The notes beneath the pieces were generated by a model. The model worked only from the letters and a program-made list of their open reading frames with translations, did no database searches and was not told the origin of the DNA. From Adineta ricciae (taxonomy: Eukaryota; Rotifera; Eurotatoria; Adinetida; Adinetidae): a stretch of DNA of 64,000 nt. Each line of letters opens with the position of its first letter. Position 1 is the first letter of the stretch. Positions 7,844-53,765 of the stretch are shown one piece after another. The DNA lies in NCBI GenBank assembly GCA_905250025.1, contig CAJNOJ010000189.1:1-64000 (forward strand). The letters are read 5' to 3'. Made by a program: the position numbers and the translations under genes.

Positions 7844-9615
7844 TTATTTCATGAGCGTAAACTCATCTCCTATCAAATCATCAACATTACGACGATATAT
7901 AAAATGTAAAAGACTTCGATTCGCCACAATCTGTGTATAACCAAATTGTTGATCATGATAGACGCTCCATTTTGCACCTGTATACGTATCGTAATCTAAA
8001 TTATGTCCTGCCATTCCCATTAGTACGTGTGTAACACCATCATCAACGCATCGTTCGAGATACATTGGACATGATCGTTCATATGAATGAATATGTGCGA
8101 AAAGATTAAGATCAATACGATATTTGTAAAACATTGGTTCTAAAGAAAGATGTAGCATTTCTGTGATTTTATTACCAATATCACGGACGACTGTTGTATA
8201 CATTGGTCGATGTGAACCAATGATCAACCAAGGTGTACGTGTATGATTTACTGATCGAAGATCTTTTTCGATCCAATCATATTGTGCTGATGAAGGAAGA
8301 AAATCATGTTCAGTTGAATAATAAACAACATGAATTGGACCAATTTCAAAACTATACCAAAATAATCCATTACCATTTGATGGCGAATGAAAACGATGTA
8401 CCATTGGTACCGCACATTCACCACCTGAATCGTATCCATAATTGCCCCATTCTGGTCGAAATCCACCAGGTCCCGGTGCACCACTGGGATCTTTGTCTCC
8501 ACCTGTCAGATGATCATATTCATGATTACCAATGCCAACCATATAAGGTACACGAGAAGCAATTGGTTCGATTTGCGTCATAAATGCATCCCAAAGTGCA
8601 GCGATGCCTCTCGCATAACTAATATCACCGATATGTAAAACACATGTTACATCATCAGTTAATACTCGTGCACGAACACGATCCATTGTCGACTTCGCGC
8701 CGGGATATACGGGTGAAACACCCATATCACCAAAAGCGATTAGATTCACTTGTGTATTTATATCTGTTGGACGATTTGTAAACGATCGTATCGAAGACCA
8801 ACCATGTTCATCACTTCCGACACGATAGTAATAAATTGTTGATGGGCGAAGATCTTGTAAAAGTATTGTATGCATATAGCCAGGATCGATAAATGCTTGT
8901 GGTCCAGTTATATTCGCTGGTCCTTCACACATATCTGATGCTTGATAGGTAATCGTTGTTCCTTGTACGTTCCATTGAAGTGATGAAGGATCGAATCCAT
9001 ATTGACATTGTGGTACTACATTTGTTGAATTTGTAACAAATGAGATAAACATTTGATCAATTCTATCACCATAGGCTAAATGAATTTGCTCGGGCGCATT
9101 GTAATTCATAGGTTCAACAGTCGGAGATCTGGCGATTAGACTGTAATTACCAGAACAATGATTTTCTCGCGAATAATAACGAAATTCAAGTGGGCGACGT
9201 AAATTGATCATTTCCCAAGACATTTTTGTTTGGTTGGTTTGTATGAATTCATAATCATAATAAGCACAAGCACCTGAGAAACAATGAAATTCATAACTAA
9301 CAAATGAAAACTATCGAGCTGACCTGTGAATAGAGGAATTTCAGTAAAATAAATGCCAATATAGTCATCTGTACAATATATCAACGTTTCATTCCACGTC
9401 ACGGTAATTTCTTCGTCACTCGCATAAAGTGTTGATGAAACATATAAATCGTTAATATTTCTTCTAGATGATCGTAATGAAACACCTTTCGTTCGATTAC
9501 ATCCGTACGGACTTGGTCTATCTTCTAATGAACGATATTTATGAAAAGGTCTATGATGATCACTTCGAATAACAATGAACAATAGAACAAAAAGAATACA
9601 CCAACGATACACCAT
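7844..9615 (-). CDS. ACP7: Purple acid phosphatase (ACP7-like)
   Basis: Two exons, 9615-9324 and 9273-7844, joined in phase 1 across a 50-base intron, give 573 residues. A hydrophobic signal peptide (ILFVLLFIVI) begins the protein, so it is probably secreted or lysosomal. A fibronectin-III-like N-terminal domain (FMISFVTNST, YYYRVGSDEHGWS) precedes the metallophosphoesterase domain. All five metal blocks are present: FGDMG, GDISYA, GNHEYD, SHRPMY and HIHSYERSCP. These bind the Fe-metal centre and hydrolyse phosphomonoesters at acid pH. Length is near that of animal and plant PAPs (450-600). The start ATG directly precedes the signal peptide. Confidence 0.92.
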
Positions 9616-32118: not shown

Positions 32119-33898
32119 TTAATGAACTCGTGTAATTTTCAGCATCTGTACGGCATGTCGTTCGATATTAGGCGAAGTATAACTGCCTATGAACACTCCA
32201 AGATCTTGATGAGTCCATAAATCTCGAACATTTGCTCGTTGATTAGCTGGCCATCCTAAATCCATCCATTTAATAGTAATCACTTCACTAGTTGTACTAT
32301 TTCGATTAAATAACAGCACAGCTTGGGATCCATCAGATAATGGTCCAGCCCATATTTCTATAATTTGTGGAACGGTTAAACATTCAGTATTGGCAGCACT
32401 TCGAATGAGTCCATCTGTTTTATTCAATTGCCATAGATTATTGCTCATCCATTGTTGAATTTTTCGTGGGCATGATGATTTCGAAGTATTATTGAAACAT
32501 GTGGTTGTTACAATATTCGTCAATCCATCACTACCAGAATCACATTTGTCGATTGTTAAACATTGTCCATTTAATGTTGATCGAATATGATCATTATTAA
32601 CATCGTAAATCCATTTTTGTCGTTGATCATGAGTAAGGCATTTAGTAGCGAATACATTGTTGAATGTTTGTGATGATGAAACAATAATTTTTTTTCCTTG
32701 TATTCCTAATGGATCTTGATTAATAGCGATTACTTCACGATTTAAATAAATATTTAGAGTTGCTTGACTCATGTTGGTTACATCACCGCCGATCAGAAGC
32801 GGAGCTTTACTGATAGCCCAAAGAGAGAAATAGGAGATGTATTCCGTATTTGTCATACCACCATTGCCTATTCGTAGCACTACACTTAACACCGTTGTGA
32901 AAAATACTGTGGTATCTTTTAGAATCTGATATAGAAAACTTACTGTCAGGATCGTTCCAGCCACCAGGTCCAGCTTTATCAGCAAATTGATTATTCTAAA
33001 TGAAATAGAATCAATTCTTTGATAGCTTACAATTGTGTCGTACTATATCTATTGTGTGAGTCATCGATTCCCAATTATCAGAAATATCATCAGTTGTCCG
33101 CCAACTATTTCCAACATTTGCAGCCCATAGTGCTGGTGTATCAACGCCCCATTCTATTCACATATGACTTTTTCTTTTTGGACTCAGCCATGGATAGAAA
33201 ACTCACCGCAAAGTGAATAGAAGATGGGTCGACCCGTCGCGTTCAATGCGTCACGCATAACTGGATAGCGCACTTCTGGTTTCGTTCCATCAGTGTTACA
33301 GTTATCATATTTTAAATAATCAACACCCCACAGTGCATATGTATTGGCATCTTTTGTTTCATATCCTAGAGAACCAGGTCGACCCGCACACGTCTTATAA
33401 CCAGCATCTAACAAGAGATAATTATAGATAAAATTTCACGCAAAGGGAAGTGTTACCTGAATATACACCGAACTTAAGTTTACGAGAATGAACATAATCA
33501 ACCAGTGCTTTCATTCCGTTTGGAAAAGCAACTGGATCAGCTAGAATCGTTCCATTTGCATCTCGATCTACTTGCCAACAGTCATCAAGATTAACTAAAT
33601 CAACAAAAAACCTTTTCAAGAACCAAAAGTAACATCTGTTTACAAACTATATTCATAGCCGGCAGCAGCCAGACCACTACTGATGATTATATCAACCGTT
33701 TTCTGGATTCTCTTTTCAGAATAATTGCATTGAAAATTATACCAACTGTTCCAACCTAAACTCAAATCTCTAGATTGATAAAATTGGCTTTTGTATCATA
33801 TATTTACCCATTTGAGGAGTTCTTCCAAGGCCATTATTTATTCCCAAGGAAAGATTTGTCAATACAAAAAGAATTAAAAATTTCATCACTCCCGCCAT
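32119..33898 (-). CDS. GH27 alpha-galactosidase with ricin-like insert
   Basis: Seven exons (33898-33808, 33755-33648, 33594-33457, 33407-33207, 33153-33044, 32995-32944, 32879-32119) join in frame to 486 residues. A signal peptide ([14 protein letters not shown]) suggests secretion. GH27 blocks: [17 protein letters not shown], catalytic nucleophile in YLKYDNCN, acid/base in TTDDISDNW, and [18 protein letters not shown] (rebuilt across the exon 6-7 splice). The C-terminal part has an insert with [24 protein letters not shown] and [12 protein letters not shown], resembling a ricin-B-like lectin repeat, before the terminal beta domain. It hydrolyses terminal alpha-galactosides. Signature details ([17 protein letters not shown]) are closer to plant/fungal/bacterial GH27 than to animal GLA. 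Confidence 0.9.
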
Positions 33899-36298: not shown

Positions 36299-39200
36299 AT
36301 GGTTAATGTTTGTCGTCAAGTAATTTCTGCGTTGAAAAGTTATTTTCAACAGTTGAATCTTTTTCGACCGACACTTAATAGCGGCGAAAATGAAAATGAG
36401 CAACAAGATCATTTCAACATTCTTGTCACTCGAGTCTACTTAGTTCTTCTCGTACTTCTTCTCATTTGTTTTGCTTCTTTTACGACATTCAGACTCAAAA
36501 GAACGATCATTGAACTTCAAAATCCCACTGAAGAACAGTTTAATGCTTTACCTGCCGATGCCAATTGTCCTTGTTCTCAAATTTCACTATATTATGGTGA
36601 ATTCGTCTCATTACAAGCGAATCTACATGAAATATGTCGCAGTGAGTTCGTATCGGAGCGATGGATAAAAGCGATTTTTTCTTATTCAAATTCGACGTAT
36701 TTCAATTTCAAAGACTTTCGTACATTCGGTAGTGCACAGTTTCAAGCACTGTCTGGCTTCTGTGATCTGTCGCGTTCTCATCTTCAACAGAATATCGATT
36801 TTTTCAAACGAACAATGTTGGTTAGTACACAAGTTCTTTCGAAGATCAATTTCCAACAAGAAATTGAGTCAACTATCGCCCGATTCAAACAAACCGTTTC
36901 TCGATCATTCGCCGCGCAATTCAAATTCATGCGGCAAATAATCACGAACAATAGACTAATCTCGGGTCTTCAGACAAACTTTTACCTTACATTCGACGCA
37001 ATTTATCCTCCTGCTATTTATGCTGTTATGTATAAACGTGCGGATAATACGAGTTGCAATTGTCTCGTAGATTCCGAATGTACTTCAAATGCCGTCATTG
37101 ACAGTATATTTGGAGCTCAAACACAGTATGAATCTGGTAACATAAAAATAATACCAGGATTAGCATCGGGTTGTTTACCAGTGAATTCAATTCTTGCATC
37201 AACACTTGAATGTTTTTATAATCAAACATGTTTAAATGAATTGATTTCATTTTTTCCGACGAATGAAAAATTCTCAGCAATGATCGTTAACAATCAAAGT
37301 CGTTTTAATCCGTTTACAGTCTTGCGATCAATCGTTGACGATTTGATGGTGGAAGATTGGATAACCAACGCTTCTTACACGAAGTTTTTCAATGCATGTG
37401 CATCTCTCTCGTGTACCTATGTGAAAGAAAAACGACAAACTTGGCAATTCGTTCTTACACAACTCATCAGTGTACTCGCAACCTTAACGATGGCACTTCG
37501 AATATTAGTTCCAATCGTTGTTAAATTTATTATGGACAAAATAAATCAAGTTGTATATCCGGAAATTCCTAGTAAATATTAATCTGATGAAATAGTCGAA
37601 TGTCTTTCATTTTTAATATTCTAGTTCGGATTCGTTTGGAAGAACTTCTAAAAACAACAAAAAAATCAATCATCGAATTGAATTTATTTAAAGATTCTTC
37701 TTGCAACGATCGACAATCTCGCTATTCACGTTATGCTACTCGTTTGTATATCATTCTAATTATCGCTTCACTTTCAATCTTAACTCTATACAACGTCACG
37801 ATCCAAATCGTTCATCATCGTACGATTTCAAATCCATCCGAACATCCATATCTCAATCTCGATCAACTAACATGCCCATGTACTTCATTATCGATACCAT
37901 ATTCTTCGTTTCTTACTATACAAGCTCAGTATCATCCGATATGTTCAAGTTATTTAACAACTTCACAATGGATCGAATTTGTTCGTCCGAAAGATTTGGA
38001 TCAACTTGTTTCGTTCGATTATGATTATAATGCTGCTACTTATTTTCAAATCTTAGCAATGTTTTGTGAACAAGTGAAAGTCATGGTTGATAACACCCTT
38101 GACGATTTTCTTCAAACACAAATTGTTGGTTCACATTTAATGCATCGAGAACTTTTTGAGAAACAAATGATTCAACTGATTAGAAATTGGAGAGAATCGA
38201 CGGCCAATCAATTCAAACGAAGTATAAATATTACTCAGCAGACTATTTCAATCAATCAAGCAATGAACCGTCTGAATATCTATTATCAATATTTATCACC
38301 TAGTAAAAAACAAGTCATCACCGAACCGAGACATTATGACAATTGTAATTGTGCTTATGCAGAATGTTACACGCCGATGAAAATAATTCACCATCGAAAT
38401 GACAGCGACTTCTTTTTTATTCCGAATTTTTTCGTGGGATGTTATCCGGTCGATGCTCTACTTAAATCGACATTGGAATGTTTTTACAATGAATCGTGTA
38501 ATAGAAAAGTTCATTCATATTTTACTTCATCGTCTAGCGGAGCCTGGACTTTTCCTGCACTTCATTCGAGGAGTAATTCAGCTGGTCAATCGATTCAATC
38601 GATTGTCAATCAATTAATGGTTGACTCGTGGTCAGAAGATATCAATTTTACTTCTTATTATAACAGTTGTGCGCCGAATTCATGCACCATTGAATACACG
38701 GGCCGTTATCACATCTTAACAATTATTACTACTGTTAGCGGATTATTCAGCGGATTATCATTTGGTTTTCAGAAGATTATCTGGTTTGGTCTGCGGATAA
38801 TCGATGAGTTTTTCAAAGCAATTTCTTTTCGAGCATTTTTACGTTATATTCGAACGCTTTTCAATCGGAGTGATGTGGAGCAAATAACGAATCGATTACA
38901 TGTTATTCTTGTGATATTAGCTCTTTACAGTCTTTACATGCATCACGTCTTTCGTTCTGATTTGACCATCGTAGATACCAAAAAACCCAAATTAGATTTT
39001 TATCGTCAATTATTTGCAGAACATGCTGGTTCTTTACATTGTCATTGTTCAGAAATATCCATCCAATATCGTTCGTTTCTAAGCATAACTCCTGATTTCT
39101 ATTCAGCGTGTTCGAGGAACATTGCGGACGAATTTTGGGCTATAATTAGCTCTATTTCACTTGTTGATTATATAGAGATCTACACCCAAAAATATGGATA

Positions 39201-39969
39201 TGTAGGTAGCGGACAATTAGCGGCCCTTGATAAATTTTGTAAACTATCGAAGGAAATCGTAGAAGAAGCTCTCAATCAATTATTAACCAGTCATTTCGTC
39301 AATAATCGATTATTGCCAGAATATTTATTAACACAGCGCATTCAATCAACTATAAGTGATGTTCAAATCGGAGTGTCGAAGACATTTGTAAATACATACG
39401 CATTAAGTCGATTGGCAGTAACGGCAAATCAGTTAATGAATACATATGGTACTAGTTGGGTGTTTGCTGAGCATCCAAAGGTTGGGTATCTGAGTACTCT
39501 TCATACTGTACCAGTTATTGTACACGGATGCAATTGTGGTCTAAATCCAAAAAAGTGCATTGATGAGCTTTTTAAACTGAAGTTTGGCTGTTATACGATT
39601 GAAGCTATGTTGCAATCAACAATCCAATGTCTCTACGAGAAAAGCTGTTTAGATAAAACAAATAGAACGAAACCACTCGAGATTTTATATAATCAGGGTC
39701 GTTTTTCACTCAATACAACGTTTGAAACACTGTTGAATGAATTAATGTTAGAAAAACTTGTCAGCAACTTATCTTATGAGAATTATTTTGAGAATTGTTC
39801 ACCCTCATTATGTACTCATTCTATTCAAAATGCAAACAATTTAATCGAAGGAATTACAATAGTCATTGCTCTCTACGGCGGGGTCGTAATCATCTGTCAC
39901 TCAATTGCGGTTATTCTCGTCAAACTACTCCCACGTCGACCTACGGCAATTACACCGACGACCGACTAA
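36299..39969 (+). CDS. Three-module two-TM Cys-rich surface protein (A)
   Basis: Exons 36299-37571 and 37625-39969 are joined by a 53-base intron (GTAAAT...TTCTAG, phase 1), giving 1205 residues. The apparent stop at 37582 and ATG at 37600 both lie in that intron. Three repeats follow one another: module 1 to 37571, module 2 to about 38836, module 3 to 39969. Each has an LNLF-type N-tail (degenerate in module 3), a TM helix (TRVYLVLLVLLLICF; TRLYIILIIASL; LHVILVILALYSLY), a CxC motif (CPCSQIS, CPCTSLS, CHCSEIS), a HxIC or C near +30, a GCxP/CFYNxxC block, and a terminal TM with a G/L-rich face. Six helices and three ectodomains result. Function unknown. I recall many single-module homologues in bdelloids. 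Confidence 0.85.
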
Positions 39970-40174
39970 TTCATTACTTTGATGTTGTTAGTAAAGATTT
40001 GTTGTTGTTGTATGCGCATTTCATATTGTTCTCGAATATAAAATAACACTGCTTGATAACTATGAAATATCTCAATGACAGATAGAACATTCTGAGAAAG
40101 AGGATAAATATATGTGAATTATGTAATAAGCAAACGACTTGAAAAGTTCAATTATATCAATTATAAGTCAAGTT
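39970..40174. other. 205-base gap between convergent module genes
   Basis: The two three-module genes converge here with both 3' ends. No gene is seen; it probably holds both polyadenylation regions. Confidence 0.5.
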
Positions 40175-43100
40175 TTATTCAGCAGTTGTGTCCAAAGCCA
40201 CTTTACCGAAACGACAGCATCGATTGTGAATTTGACGAAATACTTTCGTACCATGCCAAACGATTACTTGCAAAGCAACTGTCAGTCCACCGTAGAGACC
40301 TACCAGAATTGTAACAAGATAAATGATATCATTGCGTTGAACATAGGAATATTCACAGATTGTCGGAGCACACTCAGAAAAATAATTTGAATAATTCGAG
40401 GCATTGAACCACGTTTCGATGAAAAGATTGTCAATCATCAAACCGATTGGTGTTGTACTGGACTTATATAGAATATTCTTCGATAAATCGAGAGGTTCCG
40501 CTGGAACTGAGAAATTCATCAATGCATTGAGAGAATTTAAACATGTTCGATTATATAGGCATTCAAATGTTGATAAACGAAGGCCTAAGATCGCCGAACA
40601 TCCCGCATTCAAACCTGAAAACTCCAAATGTGTAATACGAAACAAAGATGACCTTAAATTACCTGGGATAGTAATTGCAGTAGACGAATTCAAAAAGCTC
40701 AATGCTCTTGAGCATGTTGACGTCCCTCTGGCACAAATACATGTACCATTATTATATACAACAGGAACTGTGCGAAATAAATAGTTTTCTTGTGAAGTTG
40801 AATAAACCATTTTCCAACTGGACATGAATTGATCTTGCAGCTGATTAGATTGATGTCCATTTATGATGAAATCAAGTGTACGACGAAAATTTCTCGGAGT
40901 ATGTGTGATTAAAAGTGTAACCATGGAATTGAGTTGAGCCTCAAACAAACTTTTTGGAATAGTTACGGCACTTACAAGCTTATTTGATAGAAAACTGGAT
41001 TTCGATTGGTCGACGGTGCTTTTAGTAATGTTACACAATGACGAAAGTAGACGAAATTGTGTGCTAAGGAGAAACCAATCAGGTACTGACCAAGTCGAAC
41101 CCAAATTGTATAAACCTGTGGACCAATTCGATGTAATAAATTGACTTGAACATATCTGATGCGTTACAGGTGATACGTCGAGAAATTTCTCGTACGAAAT
41201 CGAAATTTGCGAACAAGGACACATCAATGTTGATGAATACTGAGAATAAAGATATTCAAATTGAGTTTCACTTGGTGAATCAACAGTAAATGAATGAGAT
41301 TGTTGACTTAGTCCAACATAAAGTGTTATGATAATGACTGACATGAACAACAAGACAAAATAGATTCGAGTAGCTATTATATGATAGTTTTCAGGCAGTT
41401 CTTCCTCAAAGACATTTAGAGTTCGAAGTTTTTGCCAAATATAATTAACCAGCTGACCGAACGAACGCTTTTTCGATTTATCTACAAATAAAGATGATAT
41501 TTTTGCATGTTAAGTGAGTATTCGTATGTCTCACCGGTTTTGTTTTGTTGTTGCTTCCTGTTTTTATATCGACAGTACATTTGCTGAGCAAAATCGACCA
41601 AATATGGAACAATAATCTTGAGAATAGCGGTCAGTCCGCCTAACAAACCGATGACGTTCGTAACGATAAAGATGGGCTGACGTTTTTCAACAATTGTATA
41701 TTTACAAGTCGCTGGTTGACATTGAGCATAATGTGAAGCATAATTAACACTTTGTACCCAGTTTTCGATGAATAATTTTGAAATGATTATATCAAGCGTA
41801 GTATTCGGATGATATTGACTTTGTAATGAACGATCTAATGCAGTTATATTAGTTAAGTTAACTGGGACGATGTACGCTTCGTAATCATAAACACGCAAAT
41901 CGATTAACATTTGAATACACGATTGATCGTAAAAACATTGGAGTGTGGACAGAAGAGTTGAATCAATAGGGAAACAGCCGACATATAAACCCGGAATTGT
42001 ATAATTTGGTAATGATGCACCTGCGTGACAACTGTTCGCGGAACAATAATATCCTTGCGGTTTTGTACAAAGACTCGATGTGCCACATAAACATGTCGTA
42101 TTGCCATTTGTATAAACTTTCGATTGATAACGAACGTTCCATGTGCCGTTGATCTTTTGAGATCTTGGAACAACATTTGTTGCACCAGCTACGAGATATT
42201 GGTTGAGACGAATAGTGTTATACACAATATCAAACAGTGAACTGAATGACTCAGTCGTCTAGAAAATCATATAATCGTGTACGGAAGTTTCGAACTGAAT
42301 ATGGTTTACCTCTTGTTTAAATTGAGTAAATAGAGATGATGTTTGTGCATTGAAATCATCTTCTGCTAATGGTTGAGCACTAACGAAATTTGTACTATTA
42401 AATACTTCGACCGCAGTTGTTATAATTTCAGCTGCTACATAACAGAATGTTCTTAGTTGATCGAAAAATGCTTCACCAGTTATTCGATAATCACTTCCGA
42501 AAAAGGCGGGAGCATTTGGATCACTCGCGTTAACCGATTCTAAAGGCCAATATTTGAGCCAACCATCGGCTCGAACAAATGTACTTTGGCAAATCTGATG
42601 ATACCGAGGTTCGATGGCCATTATAGTCGAATAAAGCATTGAAAGTTGTTTACAGGGACATGATAATGTCGATGGATATTTCTGATAGAGTTCTTCGAAT
42701 TGCGATTGAGTGGGATTTTCTACTGTGATAGTTGTTAAATTCTGAATAAATGCTGAGTAAATGGCCAAAACGATGACGCCTATACCGAGTAAAACAATAT
42801 AAACGCGAGTTGAATAAATACCCTGACGGACATTTTCTATTTTCTTTTTAAACAAATTTAAAGTGAACAAGGCGTTTTTAACCTTCAGGTAAAGTTGATT
42901 AATATAACCTTTAACTTCTACGAAAGTTAAAGAGAAAAAATTGGATTATTTCATCACGAAAGATAAGACTCACCAGGTTTAGTTTGTTTGACTTCACCCT
43001 TTAATTCCTCGGCTTCTTCCGTCACTTTGTGCTGCTTCTTTTTCGTAATAAGTCCAATAAGAATCGGAGACGAACTGTGTATAACAACACTCAATCCGCC

Positions 43101-44339
43101 ACAGAGACTAATCAGGGTTGTTATCACATAGATTATACCAAATCTTTGCGAATAGGAATAGCTGCACGCTTTTGGTTTACAAGCTTCGAAATAACTCGGA
43201 AAATCAGCTGTACTACGGATCGATTCTATCATTAAATTATTAACTATATCACTGATCAATGTATCTGAATGATAATTCGAAACATTTTCTGTTATATTAA
43301 GTGCACTAACATTACGAAGACCACCGATTGAAGACAGAACACGTCTGAGACACGTTTCATTAAAGAAACATTCAAGTGTTGATGATAATAACGAAGTTTG
43401 TGGAATACAACCCGCTTGCATACCATTCGCTGAAACCATCGCAGGCGGATATGGCCATAGGGTTTCTTCTGGTACAATTGATCCCGCTTTTGACCAATTG
43501 AATATTCCCGATGGAAAATTACAGTCGAATGTATCCAGACAACTGCAACTATCATCTTCACTGATTGGTACAGACGAAATATTTGATTGATTGAAAGAAT
43601 ATGGATAATATGTATAATAAGTGCTGTATTTATTTGACCCTGGTGTATTTTGCACGTAGAAGTTGGTTCGAAGCGAAGAAAACACATGATTTTGAGACAA
43701 ACTCAACGATAGTAATCGATGAGTACGGTTGTAGCTAATCGTTGTTAATGATTGTAATTGTTCGACTAGCGTTACCATTTGAATATCGAAAGCAGCGCGA
43801 AATAATGCATTCGTTGAAATCATTTCCGACGAAAGAAACTCTTCAATTGCATCAACAACACTCGTATTTGTTGTACGACAAAATAATCCAAGAAATTGAA
43901 ATTGTGATGAAGCAATCAAACGAAAGTCCAGTGGATAATGATCGGTCATTGTCATGTTGAACAAAGATTGAGTCCATTCATCACGAACAAATGCACTTGA
44001 ACATACTTGATGATATTCAGGATCAAACGAGAGAAATTTCTCGTATGGAATGGAAATTTGTGAACAAGGACATGAAAGTGTTGATGGATATTTATTGGAA
44101 AGTTGCTCAAAAGTTGTTAAAGATGGGAATGGGACAATGACGACGTATGTTTGGTTACTAACTCCAGTGAAGATAAAGAGAATAAGCATAGATATTGCAA
44201 AGACAACAATGTAGAGTCGAGTGCTGAAGATCTGCTGATCTGGAGCTAAGGATTCTTTGTCTTTGTAAAGATTCAATTGAACAAGCCGATCGATAATTCG
44301 ACGCCAAAATGTGGATGAAGCTTCCTTTTCAGTACTCAT
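40175..44339 (-). CDS. Three-module two-TM Cys-rich surface protein (B)
   Basis: Four exons (44339-42974, 42917-42310, 42258-41535, 41481-40175) join in frame to 1334 residues. Module 1 is exon 1, module 2 is exons 2-3, module 3 is exon 4. Both introns at module borders are phase 1; the one inside module 2 is phase 0. Each module repeats: LNLYK/LNLFK/LNVFE N-tail, TR(L/V/I)Y-led TM helix, VENP-like stretch, STLSCPCSQISIPYEKF-type motif, YHQ(V/I)CSS, a GC(I/F/S) then STLECF(Y/F)N-T-CL block, C-P-x-x-C-(S/K/E)-Y, and a second TM with GLxGGL. N-glycosylation sites are frequent in the predicted ectodomains. It is paralogous to protein A and convergent with it. Function unknown. Confidence 0.86.
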
Positions 44340-45612: not shown

Positions 45613-46756
45613 TTATTGACTTAAGGATGCTGACAGAATACGTGGTTGACCTGAAAATCTTGAGCTAACTGAACTTCGTTGTGTTTGACGAGGATGAAAA
45701 AGTATTTGAAATGTTTTTGAACGAATTACCGAACTTGTCATTAATAAAATAGGGAAATGAGAACAATGATGAAGAATTTCCATTAATTCTAAGACCAATG
45801 CGATATTATTTGTCGCCATTTTCTGGTTATGTACAGCTGATAAGGCATTTAAAACCCCCGTCGGTGTTGTTAAAAATACAAAAGTGATACTTGAAAGGAA
45901 AACATATAAAATCACGCTTTGTTCTCGCCAATCTTTATGTTTACGCGTTCCTAAACGAATCCGCCGTTGATACGCTCGACGACGCAACCCGAGGATTAAC
46001 ACAATATTCGTCGAAATGATTAAAATCGGTAAAATAAAATTATTCAAACCAATACTTTCAATAAAGATCAAATCAGTTAATGAATACGAATAACCATATG
46101 ATTTATAATGTGCATTATCACATGAAAACAAAATTTGTGAGTTGAAAAGTTTGACAAAACAATACGAAACATTATAAGGTAAAAAGAGAAATGGATGATC
46201 GTAAATTACCACAAATATAATCAAAAACATCGATATTGTACATGCACGTCGACGAGTTATTAAACAACGACGATCAGTAATCCAAACTTTTAAATTACGT
46301 TCAATCCCTGAAGAAAAAAAAACAAAACAAAAAGTACAAATCGATTTCTTACGATAATTCTCGTCTCCTACCCAATGCGCATAGGAATAAATACGATAAA
46401 TTTTCACTACTCAATGTAAGAAACCACGTGATTGAACAAACGAGATATCGATGATCAATGTAAAAGTAGAGAATATGCACGACATACTCAGCGATAAGCT
46501 TCACTATATCAGCGATGGATAATGCGATAATAAAAATCCCATAAGGAGTTTTGTCCAACGATTTTGCACGGTAAAAAAGTAAACACGAACAAAGATTCAG
46601 CAAAGTGCCAATTATGGTTAAAATACAGCCGAGAACGAAAAATAATAAAACAAGATTTTCACCAACATTACCACATGACGAATTTAGCAATAATGCCGAA
46701 GCTGTTCGGTTGAATGTTAGTCGCATTGAGATGTTATTTGGAATAAGAAATGACAT
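45613..46756 (-). CDS. Rhodopsin-family GPCR
   Basis: Two exons, 46756-46372 and 46307-45613, joined in phase 1 across a 64-base intron, give 359 residues. The ATG at 46756 (MSFLIPNNIS) is chosen; farther upstream needs GTG. The N-terminus has NxS/T sites (NNIS, NRT, NSS). TM1 has IIGTLLNLCSCLLF, TM2 IALSIADIVKLIAEY, and TM3 ends in CALGIERNLKVW, which replaces DRY with IER (a common FMRFamide-type variant) and spans the splice. TM6 has VFLTTPTGVLNAL and TM7 SHFPILLMTSSVIR (P in place of NPxxY). It is a likely neuropeptide receptor; ligand not readable. Confidence 0.87.
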
Positions 46757-51904: not shown

Positions 51905-53116
51905 TCAAAACGTATCAATTTTATTTGATCGATGTAACCTTATTCTTCGATATCTCGACAAACGTGCAAAAGCACGAACAATAGCTCCACCGATCAAAAC
52001 AATCGATGTTCCTGTTATTGCATAGAATGCATAAGGATTTTGTTCGATTCCATTGGTCAAATTCATTCCAAATGTTCCTGCAATGAATGCACCCATTCCT
52101 AAGCTCATTGTAATGATATTGATACGAATTTCAAAACTGAGTAGTTCATTTCGAACAGCATCTAACATGAAACCAGTTGCACTTTCTAATGTTCGAACTG
52201 AATCTGATAGATCTGAAATTGTTCGACGAACTTCGGCCATTTGTTTTGTACATGCTTCGAGTAACAATTCTACTTGAATATGATCAGAAATATCCCGTTT
52301 GCGAGTGTCAGTCAAATACATTCCAATCATATCTTCATCCTGTGCAAGAACATCGACGATGGCTTGATGTGCAAGATCGGCATTTCGTTTGTATTTGTCA
52401 ACTTTTTCTTTGAGCAAAGCAAGTTCACGTAAACTTCCAATTGTGATTCGACTATATGCACGTTCACGAACATTCTGAAATTGGATAAGTAATTCTTGTC
52501 CTTTCAATCTTAAACCATGAGCAACAGATTCTAAATTGATTTCAGTTAATCGAAATTCAAATGGAATCGAATCAACATTGATCAACGTTTGATTAATAAA
52601 TCTTTCTTGATAAGTCTTGTGAATGTAAAGCACTATACGTTGATATGCTTGAGCAATGCGTTCCCAGTGTATATCATCTTGGAATCCTAATGGTTCTCGG
52701 GCGATTTTCTCAGCAGCTGGAACAAAGAAAATGCTTCGATCTAATTCGATCAAACTACGAAGTCGACGAAATGAAAAAATAATAAATCGATTTTGTCGAA
52801 TATCAATGATAGGAACATTAATCAAAAGATCTGTATCAATCTTCTGTAAATCCCGTGGTTCAAGACCATATTCTTGACAAATTTTGGCTCGATCGAATGG
52901 ACCTTGATAAGTATTAAGTTTTCCATCTTTTGTTAAAATGTAAATGTCACAATTTAATTTGTGTGTTATGTGTGGAATTTTGTCTAATTGAGAAAGAACG
53001 ACATCCGATGATTGATAACGAAAACAATTGTGTGCAATAGATATTTTCTGAGATGCAGTTTGAAATAAAGTTCTTTGAGTATATCGTTTGCATAGTAAAG
53101 ACAAAAACAGTCGCAT
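51905..53116 (-). CDS. MRS2: Mitochondrial magnesium channel MRS2-like
   Basis: Single exon, 403 residues from the ATG at 53116 (MRLFLSLLCKRYTQR). The basic, Ser/Leu-rich start fits a mitochondrial targeting peptide. The body has a long CorA-type helical domain (LLKEKVDKYKRNADLAHQAI). The C-terminus has two TM helices with the pore signature GMN (FIAGTFGMNLTNG) followed by PYAFYAITGTSIVLIGG. MRS2 forms a pentameric Mg2+ pore in the inner mitochondrial membrane. The GMN is intact and length matches yeast and plant relatives. It lies tail-to-tail with NMNAT, with the small coiled-coil gene between. Confidence 0.93.
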   Translation of the reverse strand: MRLFLSLLCKRYTQRTLFQTASQKISIAHNCFRYQSSDVVLSQLDKIPHITHKLNCDIYILTKDGKLNTYQGPFDRAKICQEYGLEPRDLQKIDTDLLINVPIIDIRQNRFIIFSFRRLRSLIELDRSIFFVPAAEKIAREPLGFQDDIHWERIAQAYQRIVLYIHKTYQERFINQTLINVDSIPFEFRLTEINLESVAHGLRLKGQELLIQFQNVRERAYSRITIGSLRELALLKEKVDKYKRNADLAHQAIVDVLAQDEDMIGMYLTDTRKRDISDHIQVELLLEACTKQMAEVRRTISDLSDSVRTLESATGFMLDAVRNELLSFEIRINIITMSLGMGAFIAGTFGMNLTNGIEQNPYAFYAITGTSIVLIGGAIVRAFARLSRYRRIRLHRSNKIDTF

Positions 53117-53765
53117 TATCTGTTTAATGAATATGTATGAGTAATGAAACGAATACACATTGTTTTTATTTCTATTTTTGTCGTAAAGGAAGAAAGAAAG
53201 AAAATGTTCTTAAGTATCAGTATGGCTAGACTTAGAACGAATGTATCGATAATAGTCATTGCCCGACATCTATACTCATTATAGTAAATAATTATCGATT
53301 TTATTGAATTGAATTTGCAAAGTAATATTAAAAAAATCAATAGGAAAATGACGAAGTATCAAAATCTTTCGTAGCTGACTATATGCAATTCGTGATAAAG
53401 GTGATCGTTTGGTCAATATTGAGTCATTCTATGTTTTTATCAGTGTGTGAACGCATGATCGATTGCTTGATTCTCTGTATACCAATGAAGTCATCACCAA
53501 CAGGAGTTCTTCTGCGGTTTTATATAGATTCTGAACAGACAAATGAGATTTTATTGACAGAGACTAAGATAAAGTCCAATAACAAAATATAGGTCATAAA
53601 TAAGAGAAAAACAAGATGTGTTTTCAAACGAAATCGATAGATATTGCAATTGGTAAATCTATTTTACACTAATCTTTAGTTTCCTTATATGAATTCTTTG
53701 CCTTTATATGTTACCTATGAAGAAAACTCATAATTTTACTTGATCTCTTTCTGTTCTTCTTGTAG
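53117..53765. other. Intergenic, divergent from MRS2
   Basis: Promoter region for MRS2 (minus) and probably a first exon for the plus-strand gene at 53766. An open frame at 53383-53592 could be that exon but cannot be joined with confidence. Confidence 0.35.

Follow-up and report, generated by a model that had tools for sequence, protein, structure and literature searches.

Three fused copies of a two-transmembrane, cysteine-rich module per chain in a large bdelloid rotifer protein family: a candidate single-chain trimer

The window analysed here, 64,000 nucleotides of the bdelloid rotifer Adineta ricciae (contig CAJNOJ010000189.1, positions 1 to 64,000), contains two convergent genes, A and B, each encoding three fused copies of a module of about 400 residues in which two transmembrane segments (TM1 and TM2) enclose a cysteine-rich ectodomain. 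Judged from sequence, both genes belong to a large family in which almost every complete member carries the module in threes, and the three-module plan is old and family-wide rather than particular to A and B. We give about an even chance to the reading that each chain forms a single-chain (pseudo)trimer, most likely a gated channel or channel-like receptor resembling the trimeric two-TM channels. Taken separately, the single-chain trimer is probable, given the modelled packing of a relative, and channel function, argued by analogy, is a tentative proposal to which we give somewhat less than an even chance. Genes A and B are known here from their structure as genes, their repeats, module number, selection and the ancestry of the module positions; fold and packing are predicted.

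Gene A lies on the plus strand (36299-39969; exons 36299-37571 and 37625-39969, one intron) and encodes 1205 residues. Gene B, on the minus strand (exons 44339-42974, 42917-42310, 42258-41535 and 41481-40175, three introns), encodes 1334 residues with no internal stop. All four introns are 51-56 bases long with GT..AG ends, and the stops of the two genes are separated by 205 bases (39970-40174). The parts of the pair are listed below; primes denote the second copy of each gene on contig C192.

36299..37571, plus strand: exon 1 of gene A, coding for module A1 (TM1, Cys-rich ectodomain, TM2); open frame and hydropathy, identical in the NCBI protein P0147.
37572..37624, plus strand: gene A intron of 53 bases, GTAAAT..TTCTAG, between A1 and A2; splice sites kept in A' (60 bases), intron absent from P0147.
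37625..38823, plus strand: module A2, encoded by the first part of gene A's exon 2; from repeat comparison, the A2/A3 boundary being approximate.
38824..39969, plus strand: gene A, module A3 and stop codon, with no intron between A2 and A3; from repeat comparison.
42974..44339, minus strand: gene B, exon 1, module B1; C192 copy 91% identical, structure model.
42918..42973, minus strand: gene B intron 1, 56 bases, between B1 and B2; place and ends kept in B'.
42310..42917, minus strand: gene B, first half of module B2; open frame after splicing.
42259..42309, minus strand: gene B intron 2, 51 bases, within module B2; kept in B'.
41535..42258, minus strand: gene B, second half of module B2; open frame after splicing.
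41482..41534, minus strand: gene B intron 3, 53 bases, between B2 and B3; kept in B'.
40175..41481, minus strand: gene B, module B3 and stop codon; C192 copy 94% identical.

P0147 (A. ricciae) is 100% identical to the translation of spliced gene A over 1205 residues; no NCBI record of gene B was among the matches of the protein searches with family modules. A preliminary description of this DNA had proposed two genes with three modules each after splicing, with these lengths and this spacing of stops, and the frames, the hydropathy and, for A, P0147 bear it out. The three introns it named hold, but one more (42259-42309, inside B2) is needed for the model. Retention of the gene A intron would bring in a stop at 37582, followed at 37600 by an ATG in frame, and A1 would then be a separate gene with a second one behind it. 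We reject this reading, which has next to no chance: P0147 matches the spliced form, and in A' the splice sites are conserved and the ATG is out of frame. Two other loci of the genome, L024 and L023, hold all three modules inside a single open frame (1279 and 1330 residues respectively), so the fusion is independent of introns.

Each protein has six hydrophobic peaks, and each of its three modules comprises TM1, an ectodomain with 12 conserved cysteines and two C-x-C motifs, and TM2 with a mid-membrane GG. All 15 pairs of the six modules match in BLASTP against a six-sequence database (E about 4e-26 to 1e-59, 21-33% identity), a likeness far above chance. The module had been described as an LNLF-type tail, a TM, a CPC-containing ectodomain and a second TM; the general plan stands, but A3 has CHC and no LNLF tail, and the shared core is the set of 12 ectodomain cysteines common to all six modules of A and B, not CPC alone. 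In an alignment of 413 rows derived from 410 modules of database relatives, all twelve are kept in 313 rows. The TM2 consensus is ITTLIGLYGGLSIILRLIIP, and its two glycines are conserved in 82% and 87% of the aligned family modules.

The convergent pair is present twice, at 36299-44339 in the window and, in the same order, at G000:C192 55699-64145. B and B' align over 1334 codons with zero gaps, the ratio of non-synonymous to synonymous substitution rates (dN/dS) being 0.22 (0.30, 0.13 and 0.26 for the three modules); their intron regions are 93-94% identical, with positions and GT..AG ends kept. For A and A' (1202 codons) dN/dS is 0.33 (modules 0.27, 0.32 and 0.41), and the intron of A' is at the same position as that of A (60 vs 53 bases). 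The copies of both genes are under purifying selection, with frames and intron positions kept. Divergence at synonymous sites (dS) is unequal inside this one duplicated block, 0.14 for B against 0.53 for A; gene conversion, or differing ages of the two halves of the block, is possible.

The family was surveyed in the A. ricciae genome and in NCBI and environmental protein collections. Genome searches with five modules gave at least 97, 103, 101, 105 and 113 matches, numbers that are lower bounds with 93-108 of 1287-1380 candidates scored. The protein searches with modules listed 257 different relatives among their matches; two of these searches scored those candidates that had the most words in common with the query (7990 and 7989), and one gave the best 120 of 138. 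Every named relative among the matches listed is a bdelloid (Adineta, Rotaria, Didymodactylos) and the rest are environmental. Relatives outside the bdelloids were thus absent from the named matches listed, which is a weak test, as it covers the candidates sharing most words and as the environmental matches are nameless.

Three modules are present in 113 of the 257 listed proteins and more than three in none. Among the 89 that reach 1150 residues, 86 have three and 3 have two; those below 1150 residues, partial gene models among them, have one, two or three. In the DNA, 19 of 24 chains carry three modules (22 sequences: the window, the C192 piece and 20 genome regions picked mostly for long frames), the other five being chains at L021, L022, L031, L039 (two modules at the region edge in addition to a full three) and L040 (one partial module). 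The best 20 genome matches (window B included) are a less biased sample. At 18 of these a further module stands beside the matched one, and two of the 18 loci, traced downstream, have exactly three modules and then none in the remaining 0.7-0.8 kilobases. At L021 and L022 an identical coding stretch flanks a run of N, so that the module count appears as four; this is taken as an assembly artefact. The A. vaga protein P0237 (1344 residues) has two modules behind a family 2 glycosyltransferase, and is perhaps a chimeric gene model.

A phylogeny of the modules, which the preliminary description had suggested, was computed for 37 three-module proteins and resolves the positions of A and B separately. 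In the A subfamily the positions M1, M2 and M3 separate into three clades (support 1.0 each), which include relatives from A. vaga, A. steineri and Rotaria sordida and exclude B; in the B subfamily the three clades include relatives from A. vaga and A. ricciae (0.997, 0.999 and 0.999). One clade holds 30 of the 37 M3 modules (0.936), whereas the M3 modules of the B subfamily adjoin their own M1 instead (0.705, weak). The A modules cluster with Rotaria by position, so the triplication in the A line predates the Adineta-Rotaria split; the separate clades of A and B modules likewise place the divergence of A and B before these genera parted. A and B are thus different old paralogous subfamilies that are neighbours by chance. 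An inverted duplication of one trimodular gene, one of two origins suggested at first, is rejected on the module tree and the identities, A1 being nearer to a dozen other genome loci (41-45%) than to the B modules (25-31%). In P0195 (ENA, 1273 residues) the three modules are mutual closest relatives (support 0.985; 33-39% identity), as if a second triplication or a conversion had again yielded three.

AlphaFold modelling of one module and of a whole chain, also suggested earlier, was confident for B1 and for P0154, a relative of gene A. The B1 model (aligned with 67 others) has a predicted local distance difference test score (pLDDT) of 88.9 and a predicted template modelling score (pTM) of 0.75, and runs in the order pre-TM helix, TM1, an immediate strand, two long helices in the ectodomain, a strand leading straight into TM2, and TM2 itself, which is long. 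P0154 (A. steineri, 1197 residues), which is labelled partial, has three nearly whole modules and is 38% identical to gene A, stands in for the latter; its whole-chain model has pLDDT 86.0 and pTM 0.77. By our own estimate, a pTM of about 0.3-0.4 would be expected of three equal parts with mutual placement unknown, and 0.77 amounts to an error between modules of some 7-8 Å. The value suggests that the three modules pack in a defined way, and is the main evidence for their assembly.

From these features a working scheme can be proposed. One chain would supply three homologous membrane subunits and fold into a (pseudo)trimer of them, their number and order fixed by gene fusion. Each module would have both ends in the cytosol, as the basic ends and the sequons suggest, with the disulfide-rich ectodomain between TM1 and TM2. 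The three TM2 helices, whose small GG residues lie mid-membrane, would surround a central threefold axis, and one extracellular head would be built from the three ectodomains. The whole would most likely act as an ion channel, or a channel-like receptor, that is gated by a stimulus or a ligand and works like DEG/ENaC or P2X channels, from which the pore and its gating are inferred by analogy; the resemblance is one of working, and kinship with either family is not claimed.

Some relatives carry additional domains. Among the 115 relatives of one protein search, FG-GAP Pfam domains are present in 18 and NHL-type domains in 3. In P0136, P0198, P0201 and P0217 the three modules are followed by a seventh hydrophobic segment and then by propeller repeats (FG-GAP or NHL; found by Pfam in three of the four), which suggests a membrane trimer with a tethered beta-propeller. 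The repeats would be placed outside the cell, consistent with a cytosolic N end. FG-GAP and NHL repeats usually serve binding. Passages of PMC3846280 mention both families as expanded in A. vaga, and do not mention an architecture of three modules plus propeller.

The preliminary description knew of no named family with this plan, and no Pfam, PDB-sequence or significant fold match contradicts it. Neither the four window proteins nor the family consensus matched ASC (PF00858) in Pfam, and the P2X profile (PF00864) matched neither window proteins nor consensus; for 68 members, which matched 32 families, ASC and P2X were absent from the 25 families listed, the other 7 being single weak matches. 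One module, a profile and the consensus, searched against the PDB by sequence, gave as their only match Cas10 (E 0.015, best stretch i-Evalue 0.55), which is not credible as kinship. Foldseek found nothing significant among viral models. A description of the family was not found in the literature as covered by titles and the beginnings of abstracts, and the word rotifer does not occur in passages of PMC9949801.

Known systems offer partial parallels. P2X receptors are trimers with one subunit per chain, each of two TMs and a disulfide-bearing ectodomain; the present module shares the two TMs and the disulfide-rich ectodomain but has no Pfam match, and the genome has its ordinary P2X genes in other places (46, compared by eye, none coinciding with module places). 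CDC50/TMEM30 subunits of P4-ATPases have one module per chain, and the score is too low to indicate kinship. In Nav, Cav and two-pore channels homologous six-TM voltage-gated domains are fused with fourfold pseudo-symmetry and specialized positions; the principle of fusion is the same, here applied to two-TM modules, three of them. A further parallel is the DEG/ENaC family (ASC, PF00858: ASIC, ENaC, FaNaC), which is marked by a fold of palm, finger and thumb and by a Gly-Ala-Ser (G-x-S) belt in mid-TM2. Passages of PMC10148893 describe its channel as a trimer of two-TM subunits with acidic residues after the belt (Glu451 and Asp454 of chicken ASIC1), and parts of PMC7308080 and PMC10148893 a His-Gly (HG) motif before TM1. 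The likeness lies in two TMs around a large Cys-rich ectodomain (seen in hydropathy, Cys pattern and the B1 model), in modelled strands at the end of TM1 and the start of TM2, and in small residues mid-TM2; the differences are three modules per chain and the lack of a sequence match, of the HG motif and of a conserved acid after the belt. Ordinary DEG/ENaC members were found elsewhere in the genome by Pfam, and none of its 90 ASC places coincides with a module match (compared by eye). DEG/ENaC-type gene pieces (PF00858) adjoin three-module genes at G000:C208:86527-88000 and 95449-97144, apparently a repeated block.

Several results weigh against a trimeric channel. No sequence match to any channel family emerged from Pfam or from the PDB by sequence, Foldseek searches of the PDB with module and trimer gave nothing with E < 1, and VIA second looks scored within that tool's "common" range, families absent from the Foldseek and VIA lists being possible. 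HG before TM1 occurs in 2 of 413 module rows, and is thus absent in most modules. Within 12 columns past the mid-TM2 motif an acidic residue is found in 37 of 413 rows and a basic one in 340 of 413. Comparison by hhalign with three DEG/ENaC frames of the A. ricciae genome gave a probability of 0.2%, with a thin target profile (Neff 1.5) and frames that end at the presumed TM2. The number three also has its exceptions: L031 (G000:C512:45001-54680) has five consecutive modules in three open frames on one strand, either a three-module gene followed by two further modules or a longer unit, and L003 and L019, with no second module within 1.5 kilobases, are possible single modules (2 of 20 loci). 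The frame at L003 contains the NCBI protein P0078 of 452 residues. Single-module relatives in bdelloids had been suggested earlier; the named relatives are bdelloid, but single-module ones are no more than possible, with L003 and L019 as the candidates among the 20 best loci.

The same motif counts and the hhalign result tell against an extremely diverged true DEG/ENaC member fused in threes, as does the lack of a PF00858 match. Such kinship would account for the strands adjoining TM1 and TM2 in the B1 model, for the DEG/ENaC chains that head one VIA list (scores in the common range) and for the G-x-[ST] that 201 of 400 modules have at this position of TM2, and ordinary genes of the kind are abundant in the genome; exact GAS is found in 1 of 413 rows, and we consider this origin improbable. 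Hardly better placed is the view that the modules are beads on a string, with no mutual assembly and with three as the relic of one ancestral triplication. The triplication is old in most subfamilies, so that three could be inherited without constraint, and the five modules in a row at L031 would fit; the pTM of the P0154 chain, the rarity of complete genes reduced to one or two modules, and P0195, apparently tripled or homogenized anew with three kept, oppose it.

A more serious rival, unlikely in our judgement and well ahead of these two, is a single-chain trimer with a role other than that of a channel. It would be a surface receptor, or a protein of adhesion or recognition, in which the three ectodomains act jointly, the large family providing recognition diversity. 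The size and divergence of the family, the FG-GAP or NHL repeats in 21 of 115 relatives and the missing channel signature (Pfam, motif counts) favour it, but the conserved small residues of mid-TM2 would require another reason and a fixed number of two-TM modules is unneeded in a simple receptor. The preferred reading, a single-chain trimer that is most likely a channel, extends to a bolder one that we hold a little less likely than channel function itself: the family may be a new, so far bdelloid-only, ion channel superfamily, in which a trimeric two-TM channel was triplicated into one gene (as tetramers were in Nav and Cav), the number three is held by pore symmetry, the positions are specialized and some lines have gained a further TM that tethers a beta-propeller sensor outside the cell.

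Fused subunits are well known for tetrameric cation channels; we are not aware of a natural trimer in which two-TM subunits share one chain, and narrow phrase searches of the literature, a weak test, matched no paper on one. Subunit fusion fixes stoichiometry and leaves each position free to evolve separately. If the trimer is real, more than 100 natural concatemers (the 113 of 257 listed) make it possible to set each position against its two neighbours in the chain. Even without channel activity, the near-universal three modules of complete members call for an explanation in quaternary structure, and bdelloids, noted for desiccation tolerance and asexuality, possess a large unnamed family of membrane proteins. 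Elsewhere in the window, frames 1034-1903 and 45613-46407 resemble, by eye, two receptors of the G-protein-coupled type, 7844-9223 a purple acid phosphatase, 32119-32985 an alpha-galactosidase and 51905-53158 a CorA/MRS2-type transporter.
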